Below are positions 8,991 to 39,973 of a DNA stretch of 40,585 bases, piece by piece. The position numbers were made by a program, and so were the translations under genes. The DNA is from an uncultured Treponema sp. (GTDB lineage: Bacteria > Spirochaetota > Spirochaetia > Treponematales > Treponemataceae), in NCBI GenBank assembly GCA_946185185.1, contig CAMHIV010000002.1:1-40585 (forward strand), given 5' to 3'. Each line of letters begins with the position of its first letter. The first letter of the stretch is position 1. The notes under the pieces were generated by a model, which was not told where the DNA came from, ran no database searches, and worked only from the letters and a program-made list of their open reading frames with translations.

Positions 8991-9782
8991 TTATTTTCTG
9001 TTTGCTTCAATCCATTTTACTGCAAAATCAACAATGGCTCTCTGGCTCATACATTTTACAGTTGCATTTCCGATTTCAGTAACAGAAATTGGATTTGATT
9101 CTTCGAAAGCTGCTCCTATCTGTTCAAAATCTTCGCCGTCAACAACCAGAGTTTCATAAGTTACCCATTTGCGCTTTCCGTTTACCATCATTGCACTGCT
9201 TTCGTTCGCATAATGCTTACTCGGGTATTCAGCGCGGACATCGGCAAGGTGGATAGAAGTGTTTTTATCATAACCTGTTCCAAGAAGCAAAACTTTTCCA
9301 TCGAGCTTGTACAATTTTGCCAAAGGAGAAGTTTCTCCAAAAATATCAGAAAGGTCGTGATCTTTTACAAGATATTCTGCATTTGGTCCCAAAGCTGCAA
9401 GAGAACGAGCCGGATGATCACTTCGAACAGCGCCCGGCCATTTTCGGAACATTTCGGCAACAGCACCCATGGTATTTGTTGGAGTAATATTTTTATCATA
9501 AGCAGGCCAGTTCTGGCGAATCAAATCCCACCATTCCTTTGGCTCTTCCCAATGAACGCCGGCAGTCGGATCAAGATTTTTCCAGGTCTGGGTAGGCATC
9601 ATAATTGTTCCGGTTTCACCAACAGTTTCTAAAAGCGCTTCGATCACTATCTGAGGACCGCCACAAACAAAGCCAAAGCTCTTGAGTGATGTATGAACAA
9701 TTACATTGTCTCCCTTTTTCAGGCCAATTTTTTCAAAGCCTGAAATCAAATCCTTTTTAAGAACAATTTTTCTTTCTGACAT
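8991..9782 (-). CDS. AAC(3)-family aminoglycoside N-acetyltransferase-like protein
   Basis: GDNVIVHTSLKSFGFVCGGPQIVIEAL, MMPTQTWKNLDP and AVRSDHPARSLAALGP are typical of the AAC(3)/YokD family. Confidence 0.85.
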   Translation of the reverse strand: MSERKIVLKKDLISGFEKIGLKKGDNVIVHTSLKSFGFVCGGPQIVIEALLETVGETGTIMMPTQTWKNLDPTAGVHWEEPKEWWDLIRQNWPAYDKNITPTNTMGAVAEMFRKWPGAVRSDHPARSLAALGPNAEYLVKDHDLSDIFGETSPLAKLYKLDGKVLLLGTGYDKNTSIHLADVRAEYPSKHYANESSAMMVNGKRKWVTYETLVVDGEDFEQIGAAFEESNPISVTEIGNATVKCMSQRAIVDFAVKWIEANRK

Positions 9783-9809: not shown

Positions 9810-10016
9810 GAATGCCGAGGTTTTATTGATACTCCATTAAAATTTGCTCCCAGTCGATAAACATTGTGTAAAATCGTGCACTAGTGCACTACATGCTGTT
9901 TGTGGCAAAGGAACTTATGTTCTGTCGCTCCGCGACACCCACAAACAGAATGTTTTTCCACAATGCTCCTCTCCTTCGCGCAAATTTTAAATGATCCTTC
10001 ATAAACCTCGGCATTC
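9810..10016. repeat. Family A intergenic element, copy 1 (inverted-repeat-bounded, MITE-like)
   Basis: Left end GAATGCCGAGGTTT (9810) and right end AAACCTCGGCATTC (10003-10016) are inverted. The similarity extends inward to CATTAAAATTTGC / GCAAATTTTAAATG. Contains the perfect palindrome GTGCACTAGTGCAC (9876-9889). Confidence 0.8.
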
Positions 10017-10095: not shown

Positions 10096-11040
10096 ATGGC
10101 AGATTTAACGAATAAACAAACAGACTCAAAACAATATTCTTCTACTCTTCAAAAGCATCTTTACCGGGAATCGCTTCGGGAAAATAAGGCTCACGGAAAA
10201 AAAAGTTTTCCATTTGTGATGTATCACGGCAGAATTCCTGAATGGCTTGGCGGCTACCCCCTTCACTGGCACAACGAATTTGAAATCATCTTCATAACCT
10301 ACGGGGAAGGAATAATCAATGTACAGGGGAAAAAATATTTTTGCACCAAAGACGACATTATTATTATACCACCGCAGCAAATCCATTCCATTGTCCAGGA
10401 CGGGCAGAAAAAAATTGCCTACTACAATATTCTCTTTGACTTTTCATTCCTGGAAGAAAATCCGGATTCGTTTTGCAGCCGTACTTTTTTTGAAAGATTT
10501 TCGGAAAATACGATTTTAATCACCCCGCACATAAAAAAAGATTCTGAATTGAATGTAAAACTTCTGCCTTTAATCAACAGTCTCATTGAAATGTACGCAG
10601 AAAACTACGGAGACAATGCTCTTTTGATAAAAGCCCGTCTTTTTGAAATCATTCATCACTTGCAAAATCAAATTGTTTCCGTAACAAAAAATTCCAGTTA
10701 CGCAAAAAAGCATTCCCGCCTGAAAAAAGTAATTTCATTTATTCAAGAAAATTTTTCGCGACCAATTTCCATAGAAGAAGCCGCAGAATTAATAAATCTT
10801 TCGCCAAATCGTTTTATGAAAATGTTTAAAGAGCAGACCGGGCTTCCTTTCATTCAATATGTAAACGATTACAGACTGGAGCTTGCGGCCGAATCAATTC
10901 TTCAGGGAACAAAAAGCATTACTCAAATCGCGTTTGAATGCGGCTTTGAAAGCACTTCCTATTTCATAAACCTGTTCCACAAAAAATTCGGCCTAGCTCC
11001 AGTTGCATATCGAAAATCAAAGCTGAATACTACGCAGTAA
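10096..11040 (+). CDS. AraC family transcriptional regulator (cupin sensor plus C-terminal double HTH)
   Basis: PLHWHNEFEIIFITYGEG cupin-type N-terminus, then SIEEAAELINLSPNRFMKMFKEQTGLPFIQYVNDYRLELA and ITQIAFECGFESTSYFINLFHKKFGLAPVAYRK. Confidence 0.93.
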   Translation: MADLTNKQTDSKQYSSTLQKHLYRESLRENKAHGKKSFPFVMYHGRIPEWLGGYPLHWHNEFEIIFITYGEGIINVQGKKYFCTKDDIIIIPPQQIHSIVQDGQKKIAYYNILFDFSFLEENPDSFCSRTFFERFSENTILITPHIKKDSELNVKLLPLINSLIEMYAENYGDNALLIKARLFEIIHHLQNQIVSVTKNSSYAKKHSRLKKVISFIQENFSRPISIEEAAELINLSPNRFMKMFKEQTGLPFIQYVNDYRLELAAESILQGTKSITQIAFECGFESTSYFINLFHKKFGLAPVAYRKSKLNTTQ

Positions 11041-14072: not shown

Positions 14073-14120
14073 GAGCCTGTCGAAGGGCTTGTCGAAGGGC
14101 TTGTCGAAGGGCTTGTCGAA
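14073..14120. repeat. Short tandem repeat, four 12-bp units (GRGCYTGTCGAA)
   Basis: GAGCCTGTCGAA then three copies of GGGCTTGTCGAA, at 14073, 14085, 14097 and 14109. Confidence 0.9.
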
Positions 14121-16507: not shown

Positions 16508-16634
16508 TTTCGAGTTAGAAGATTCTTCATCAAAATTGGCTACCAGTCGCAAAACGATGATGTAAAAACGTGCACTAGCGCACTACATGCTGATTGTTGT
16601 AAAGTAACTATTTATAATTCTTAATAACTCGAAA
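16508..16634. repeat. Family A intergenic element, copy 2
   Basis: Terminal inverted repeat TTTCGAGTTA (16508-16517)/TAACTCGAAA (16625-16634). Core ...AAAATTGGCTACCAGTCG-N20-GTGCACTAGCGCAC-TACATGCTGATTGTTGTAAAGTAACT aligns with copies 1 and 3. Confidence 0.72.
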
Positions 16635-19097: not shown

Positions 19098-19295
19098 GAA
19101 TGCCGAGGTTTGGAAGAGTCATTAAAATTGGCGCGAAGGAGCATTGAGTGGAACGGGAACAATCTGTTTGTTGCTGTCGCGAAGCGACAGTTTATAGTTA
19201 CTTTACAACAAGCAGCTTGTAGCGCGATATCGCGCGGTCCCGGAACGCTCAAGGCGACTGAGAGCCAATTTTACTGGTGTTTAAGTAAAACTCGG
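19098..19295. repeat. Family A intergenic element, copy 3 (inverted orientation)
   Basis: Starts GAATGCCGAGGTTTGGAAGAGTCATTAAAATTGGCGCGAAGGAGCATTG. The minus strand from about 19295 reads GCCGAGTTTTACTTAAACACCAGTAAAATTGGCTCTCAGTCG-N19-GCGCGATATCGCGC-TACAAGCTGCTTGTTGTAAAGTAACT. Confidence 0.75.
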
Positions 19296-38793: not shown

Positions 38794-39654
38794 ATGGTTA
38801 TTAATCACAATATGAGCGCTATGTTCGCTCAGCGTTCTCAGGGAATTACAGATTTGAACCAGACAAAAAACATGGAAAAACTTTCGTCTGGTGAAAAAAT
38901 CAATCGTGCTGGAGATGACGCTTCTGGTCTTGCAGTTTCTGAAAAAATGCGTGCACAGATTCGCGGTTTGAATCAGGCTTCAGAAAACGCTCAGAACGGT
39001 ATTTCTTTTATTCAGACTACAGAAGGTTATTTACAGGAAACAACTGACATCGTTCAGCGCATTCGTGAACTTGCAGTTCAGTCATCAAACGGTATTTACT
39101 CAGCAGAAGACCGCATGCAGATTCAGGTTGAAGTTTCTTCTTTGATTGCAGAAGTTGACCGCATCGCATCTTGCGCACAGTTCAACGGTATGAACATGCT
39201 TACAGGACGTTTTGCTCGCCCAACTGGTGAAAACGTTGTTACAGGTTCTATGTGGTTCCACATCGGTGCAAACATGGACCAGAGAACTCAGGTTTACATT
39301 GGTACAATGTCTGCAATGGCTCTTGGTATGCGCAACATCGGTGATGAATCAATCATGAGTCTTGAAACTCCAGACAGCGCTAACCAGGCTATCGGTACAC
39401 TGGATGAAGCTTTGAAAAAGATCAACAAGCAGCGCGCTGACCTTGGTGCTTACCAGAACCGTCTTGAAATGACAGTTAAGGGACTTGATGTTGGTGCAGA
39501 AAACCTTCAGGCTTCTGAATCACGCATCCGTGATACAGACATGGCTGAAGAAATGGTTGACTTCACAAAGAACCAGGTTCTTTCTCAGGCTGGTACAGCA
39601 ATGCTCGCTCAGGCAAACCAGAGCAGTCAGAATGTACTTTCACTCTTGAGATAG
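38794..39654 (+). CDS. flaB: Flagellar filament core flagellin FlaB
   Basis: [63 protein letters not shown]... and C-terminal [27 protein letters not shown], typical of a Treponema FlaB. Confidence 0.97.
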
Positions 39655-39676
39655 TATCTAGTCTAGCAAAAATGCT

Positions 39677-39705
39677 AAAAAGCGTCCGAAAGGGCGCTTT
39701 TTTTT
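39677..39705 (+). terminator. Rho-independent terminator of flaB
   Basis: AAAAAGCGTCC-GAAA-GGGCGCTTTTTTTT. Confidence 0.85.
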
Positions 39706-39840: not shown

Positions 39841-39887
39841 GGGTAGTAAAACTAGTGGGTGAACTGGTAGCAAACCCGCGTACAAAG

Positions 39888-39973
39888 CAGAGCAGCCAGA
39901 ATGTACTTTCACTCTTGAGATAGTCTACAGCTTAGCAAAATTGCTTAAAAGCGTCCGCAAGGGCGCTTTTTTT
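39888..39973 (+). pseudogene. Flagellin gene 3' remnant plus duplicated terminator
   Basis: CAGAGCAGCCAGAATGTACTTTCACTCTTGAGATAG differs at one position from flaB 39619-39654 and encodes the same [10 protein letters not shown]-stop. It is followed by a second AAAAGCGTCC-GCAA-GGGCGCTTTTTTT terminator. Confidence 0.75.

Follow-up and report, generated by a model that had tools for sequence, protein, structure and literature searches.

The window and its three elements

The window (the whole stretch of 40,585 nucleotides analysed, from an uncultured Treponema sp.) contains three intergenic elements of one family (Family A). Divergent genes flank the first of these, one encoding an aminoglycoside 3-N-acetyltransferase-like protein and the other an AraC-type regulator (window 8991-9782 and 10096-11040). 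The original prediction described a shared motif, a short spacer, a 14-bp palindrome and a second motif in all three, and this description is confirmed at the positions listed below. The palindrome is perfect in copies 1 and 3 and has one mismatch in copy 2, and the spacer before it measures 19, 20 and 19 nt in copies 1, 2 and 3, respectively. Helices P1 to P4 and covariance model R1 are described with the fold, and strands are those of the folded RNA.

9810..10016, minus strand: copy 1, complete element with outer terminal inverted repeats (TIRs)
9810..9825, no strand assigned: copy 1 outer TIR, left arm GAATGCCGAGGTTTTA
10001..10016, no strand assigned: copy 1 outer TIR, right arm ..AAACCTCGGCATTC
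9839..9988, minus strand: copy 1 RNA core, with long stem P1, three-way junction, P2, P3 and P4 (model R1, 166 bits)
9876..9889, minus strand: copy 1 hairpin P2, the 14-bp palindrome GTGCACTAGTGCAC of the original prediction, with a 5 bp stem and a CUAG loop
9891..9953, minus strand: copy 1 P3 (ACAT/ATGT and CUGUUUGUG/CACAAACAG), enclosing P4
9923..9937, minus strand: copy 1 apical hairpin P4 (UGUCGC..GCGACA); a GNRA tetraloop in most family members with a four-base loop
9968..9979, minus strand: copy 1 conserved internal loop of P1, 5' side GCGAAGGAG
9845..9857, minus strand: copy 1 internal loop of P1, 3' side CGACUGGGAGC, with a covarying A-U/G-C pair and a probable tandem G.A
16508..16634, minus strand: copy 2, internally deleted, with its own TIR TTTCGAGTTA/TAACTCGAAA
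16570..16583, minus strand: copy 2 P2 palindrome GTGCACTAGCGCAC, one mismatch
19098..19295, plus strand: copy 3, complete element
19124..19272, plus strand: copy 3 RNA core (model R1, 152.5 bits)
19222..19235, plus strand: copy 3 hairpin P2 GCGCGATATCGCGC

Copies 1 and 3 have folding energies of -76.9 kcal/mol (z -8.9) and -69 kcal/mol (z -5.9). The truncated copy 2, which is missing part of P3, P4 and the other arm of P1, has an unremarkable fold (z -2.2). As originally noted, no transposase ORF is encoded inside any of the three copies, and their flanking genes are unrelated to one another. The palindrome was rejected as a rare event in its own right, as the window holds seven perfect 14-bp palindromes where 3.3 are expected from mononucleotide shuffles. 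What goes beyond chance is a homologous position that varies yet stays self-complementary, together with the wider structure around it, and not the mere palindrome. Insertion of the element into pre-existing palindromes was also rejected, with a single empty palindrome of such kind in the host genome.

Other repeats are found in the same stretch. A perfect 12-bp tandem repeat (TGTCGAAGGGCT, 3.6 copies) occupies window 14078-14120, and related palindromes, GGTGGTTTCGAG..CTCAACCACC, occur elsewhere too, one of them within Family A copy L045. Two 91-bp direct repeats, 89% identical (window 39614-39704 and 39883-39973), each end in a terminator-like hairpin with a T-run; they gave no above-threshold Rfam match and are possibly duplicated small RNA genes.

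Copies in the host genome

In the 2.39-Mb host assembly (G000; G and L numbers denote genomes and loci), the shared motif is found 39 times when 0-1 mismatch is allowed, and a blastn search with copy 1 returns 43 matches. The host copy number is put at about 50. A complete element measures ~205 bp and is bounded by inverted repeats with the RNA inside, its full architecture running from the outer inverted repeat through a linker rich in A and T, AAAATTGGC...GCCAATTTT, the internal loop and another stem to the palindrome and a second, larger hairpin. The palindrome position is occupied by GTGCACTAGTGCAC, GTGTGCTAGCACAC, GTGAGCTAGCTCAC, GTAAGCTAGCTTAC, GTACGCTAGCGTAC, GTGCTATATAGCAC, GCGCTATATAGCGC, GCGCGATATCGCGC and others. 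Internal deletions affect many copies (L006, L017, L024, L030 and L041), and the apical P3/P4 module is swapped in L005, L007, L025, L034 and L040. The outer repeat extends ~9 bases beyond the family consensus into flanks that are locus-specific and mutually complementary, above a partner-shuffle control, and no direct target duplication is found at the outer repeats of the host copies.

Some host loci depart further from this plan. Another structured module, GAGCAAAACTCCGTTTTGCTTGCTAGTTTTTGC...GGTAACGGTGG...AACCGTTACC, sits at the P3/P4 apex of L005, L007, L025, L032, L034 and L040, as though helices were exchangeable. L248, L249, L251, L252, L253, L257 and L048 have the outer repeat and the foot of P1 (AAAATTGGC/GCCAATTTT) in common with the family and enclose a different core (GGCTCTCAGCGGGAACCTGA...CTCCCGCTTACGCC). 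A lone 37-bp palindrome composed of the outer repeat arms only (G000:C17:15688-15724) is perhaps a near-complete internal deletion.

A covarying fold, probably of RNA

RNAalifold, applied to 27 host copies, returned 47 pairs with double changes in 24 of them. The fold is ~150 nt long and consists of the interrupted long stem P1 leading to a three-way junction, from which emerge hairpin P2 and hairpin P3, the latter capped by P4. Model R1 extended the alignment to 29 genomes and 86 distinct sequences (alignment A2). Of the 3928 paired cells in A2, 96.1% are canonical and 46 of the 47 pairs have changed on both sides, figures that are biased toward the R1 structure as A2 was fitted to that model. 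The covariation score is 0.661, compared with 0.065-0.092 for slid partners and 0.183 for shuffled ones, and pairing in helix P3 reaches 99.6%, almost every position showing several pair types. These results support the original suggestion that selection acts on self-complementarity over primary sequence. Eight helix segments covary, and the palindrome itself is one of them.

The strand that folds is opposite to the orientation first described. On this strand G.U pairs outnumber A.C pairs by 111 to 19 in A2, and by 60 to 12 when counted as pair-by-genome events. In a MAFFT alignment, built independently of the model and read with a structure predicted for the opposite (originally described) strand, the ratio of A.C to G.U was about 43:13 in the core and 19:18 in the TIR. 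The four-base loops of P4 are GNRA in 35 of 48 cases on the RNA strand, in six versions, and in none on the other strand. Moreover, a pair in the internal loop of P1, adjoining the probable tandem G.A, switches between A-U and G-C with G-U intermediates, and the motifs GCGARGGAG, CGACYGGGAG and AUAGUU are conserved unpaired in the core. Covariation, strand asymmetry, GNRA loops and the internal-loop pair point together to the core being an RNA fold with the palindrome as its hairpin P2, and the folded strand presumably acts as RNA. Neither a dyad protein site nor a symmetric cruciform, both raised at the outset, explains the excess of G.U over A.C and the GNRA loops. A pseudoknot between GCGAAGGAGC and GUUCCUUUGC (10 possible consensus pairs, judged by eye) was rejected, as the changes on its two sides are not coordinated. 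No Rfam 15 covariance model matched near or divergent members of the family.

Within a single genome the individual copies decay: among the resident copies of G231, 44 of 58 paired-site substitutions break the pair, a pattern that copies free of constraint should show. Since single copies decay there, yet the changes between genomes are nearly all compensated, selection acts on the propagating copies. The fold is kept by each propagating lineage, and so it serves the propagation or the tolerance of the element.

Terminal repeats and mobility

The ends of the element differ among lineages. TIRs measure 20 bp in G010 and G231, 14-16 bp in G000 and about 20 bp in G044, and the long TIR is absent from many copies in G004, G024 and G095, which have little beyond P1. 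The RNA elements of G010 and G231 end in CAGGGCAAACGCATTATAAA, those of the window's genome in TGAATGYCGAGTTT, and G044 has a third pair of ends, GTCCGCGYGGGAAGACGC.

The sister genome G231 also holds many copies of a 1.27-kb insertion sequence (IS) of the ISAs1 family, with CAGGGCAAACGCATGTAAAAA ends and exact 10-bp target duplications. The outer 14 bp, CAGGGCAAACGCAT, are identical between this resident IS and the G231 RNA element, and both have 10-bp duplications. The IS with matching ends that had been looked for was thereby found, matching the TIR of that lineage and not GAATGCCGAGG. With each G231 and G189 element taken once (the palindromic P2 yields a double listing), 10-bp duplications of the RNA element matching at 8 or more of 10 positions flank 11 of 15 unique copies in G231, 5 of 5 in G189 and 6 of 20 in G010, where the shuffled null gives fewer than one. 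When the flanks of G231 copies are joined, they align to uninterrupted DNA in G021 or G189, that is, empty sites; at L191 and L189 a 10-mer found once in the relative borders the element exactly on both sides. In the regions of G179 orthologous to the G000 loci L010 and L016, the gaps between the flanks are too short for an element, and judging from these alignments the two copies are probably younger than the G179 split or were lost in G179. At L149 and L152 of G231, two ISAs1 insertion sequences lie directly beside an RNA element, spaced only by 10 bp that resemble the target duplication.

The family has TIRs, target duplications (in G231, G189 and G010), short length, no transposase gene, many dispersed copies and empty sites in relatives, as a MITE does, and the element in G231 and G010 (with G021 and G189) is a MITE with ISAs1-type ends. 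Ends in common with an autonomous IS of the same genome, which would mark dependence on ISAs1, are found in G231 and not in the window's genome. We infer that an ISAs1 transposase moves these elements. No match to the ISAs1 transposase (NF033564) was found in G000 and none was detectable in G010, nor was a transposase with TGAATGYCGAGTTT ends found in the window's genome; so at least in G000 and G010 the mover is gone, missed or different.

Distribution

Model R1 matches 28 of 79 relatives, all of the same genus, and 114 of 200 genomes of the genus, with no match in the other 86. Across the phylum, matches occur in 29 of 395 genomes, which belong to 3 of 169 genera and to a single family; the element was not found in phage and plasmid collections. 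Copies per genome range from one to about 100. G231 has 43 matches to the element, and G010 has 221 TIR matches, many of them at contig ends as is expected of recent near-identical repeats. Only one good copy is present in some genomes (G079, G122 and G179), that of G179 (L211) appearing at the same site as the G000 copy L027.

In G044, on its only contig, C1, most of the 26 copies are clustered at 15-52 kb, 2.41-2.45 Mb and 2.69-2.73 Mb, several of them as adjacent pairs. Integron attC cassettes were considered there and rejected on gene content, as the copies lie in both orientations between ordinary genes.

Alternative explanations

One alternative holds that these are ordinary MITE hairpins, whose arms are kept complementary by template switching (quasi-palindrome correction) during replication, with neither selection nor RNA function. 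The extended match of the host outer TIR arms, which comes without strand bias or target duplication, would fit this process, as would the decay of resident copies regardless of pairing. Template switching cannot, however, maintain the strand asymmetry of the core, its GNRA loops, the A-U/G-C pair of the internal loop or the conserved unpaired motifs, and we consider it very improbable as the whole account. The original prediction had left a choice between a non-autonomous mobile element and a structured RNA or ssDNA element; mobile element and RNA now hold together, while the ssDNA reading is disfavoured. In that reading the folded strand would be recognised by a tyrosine recombinase, like an integron attC site, or by a Y1 transposase, like the hairpins of IS200/IS605 or REP elements. 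Such recognition would suit the strand specificity of the fold, and the GTAG that often precedes P2 here recalls the GTAG beside the palindrome of REPs (PMC3733652). Against it, GTAG is not kept (UCAAG, GCAG and AUAG variants occur in A2), a DDE transposase would account for the 10-bp duplications and TIRs, and the G044 clusters lie among ordinary genes rather than cassettes. Moreover, Y1_Tnp was not detectable in the window's genome (G000), nor was it found in G004, G024, G044, G095 or G231, which also speaks against the RAYT/TnpA_REP driver first envisaged. The likelihood of an ssDNA element seems to us very small.

Two further alternatives accept a functional RNA and assign it a different role. 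A cis regulator of neighbouring genes spread by transposition, such as a riboswitch-like leader, an attenuator or a bidirectional terminator, is consistent with the intergenic placement, with the position of ISAs1-type copies mostly upstream of genes, and with many copies in G004, G024, G094 and G095 that have no long TIR, show an A-run/T-run at the end of P1 and lie at 0-35 nt from the nearest stop codon of a gene. Yet orientation relative to the neighbouring genes is unbiased (++ 26, -- 19), which disfavours a sense-strand leader function. Because the neighbours of the window copies are also unrelated, a leader-type regulator tied to particular genes is disfavoured as well; individual copies decay, too, and no terminator-like site was scored in copy 1. 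An apparent sense-orientation bias in G231 and G010 (in G231 the downstream gene is co-directional in 13 of 14 cases) was dismissed as an artefact of divergent intergenic sites, where orientation is uninformative. We regard the cis regulator as unlikely. A trans-acting small RNA, made from one or a few intact master copies and having a conserved target or protein of its own (in the service of the host or of transposition control), would leave the other copies as debris. That the lineage keeps the fold while copies decay, that G079, G122 and G179 retain one good copy, and that Coxiella has small RNAs derived from MITEs (PMC5896051) would all agree with this. On the other side, copy 1 has no clear promoter or terminator of its own, the single G179 copy that seems to share a site with L027 is a candidate conserved gene only, and such an RNA is not essential because 86 of the 200 genomes have no match. 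This role is conceivable, though we think it rather unlikely.

The explanation that we favour, and hold to be quite probable, is a non-autonomous, MITE-like DNA transposon family of 0.2 kb, which carries a structured RNA of ~150 nt and is moved in trans via its ends. Transposases acting in trans on these ends would move the DNA element, with ISAs1-family ends in G231 and G010 (with G021 and G189), and the window's genome harbours the same RNA in a chassis with the other ends, TGAATGYCGAGTTT. Transcription of the RNA would come from a promoter within the element or from one nearby; the lack of a clear promoter or terminator in copy 1 counts against this. Its likeliest role, which we put forward tentatively and with more doubt than conviction, is that it may bind a conserved host protein or a processing or termination factor, in cis or as a small RNA; once bound, it might protect or insulate the insertion or the transcript of the element, and so help its spread or tolerance. 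An extension of this model is a selfish RNA module that changes vehicles: the same ~150-nt RNA would ride on three or more unrelated sets of ends and would itself be needed for the element to transpose or become established (a chassis-swapping MITE that depends on its RNA); this we judge distinctly unlikely.

Relation to known elements and significance

Treponemal structured RNAs with tens of copies per genome include the TD-1 and TD-2 RNA motifs of Treponema denticola, and bcr1 of the Bacillus cereus group and the ERIC/RU repeats are imperfect palindromes of 120-200 bp, scattered between genes and folding as RNA. No Rfam family matches the present sequences, and TD-1 and TD-2 are not mentioned in the main text of the 2010 motif paper. 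The bcr1 and ERIC/RU repeats differ in length, architecture and taxon; the present element has a three-way junction with a GNRA loop, and a sister genome supplies a candidate family of transposases. Like ISAs1 MITEs, the present element has outer ends (in G231 the 14 bp CAGGGCAAACGCAT of the resident ISAs1 IS), 10-bp duplications, a length of 0.2 kb, no ORF and an intergenic location. Unlike them, it has a deeply conserved multi-helix RNA core, and the same core occurs with other ends in G000 and G044.

The Coxiella elements QMITE1 and QMITE2 (PMC5896051) resemble it in having ~50 copies, TIRs and a stable transcript fold, and in being a source of small RNAs. Their folds, however, are single-sequence predictions from one species, and the word covariation is absent from that paper, whereas here the fold is conserved with compensatory change over more than 100 genomes. 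REP/RAYT systems (PMC3733652) also often have GTAG ahead of a varying, self-complementary palindrome; in contrast, most of the carriers tested here are without RAYT, GTAG is not kept, TIRs and 10-bp duplications are present, and the palindrome is one hairpin of a far larger fold. MITE-derived small RNAs are already known (PMC5896051; reviewed in PMC10969869), and our literature search for treponemal repeats returned nothing specific. An RNA from a MITE therefore has precedent, while a genus-wide, intricate covarying RNA core combined with differing transposon ends is, as far as we searched, undescribed.

Bacterial MITEs are usually regarded as inert deletion derivatives. Here the interior of a MITE is a multi-helix RNA under selection in more than 100 related genomes, with ends that differ by lineage. 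This adds to the genus an undescribed class of structured RNA, at what can be more than 100 copies per genome and with a working covariance model, and it offers a clean case in which to test if the spread or the tolerance of a mobile element depends on a structured RNA.
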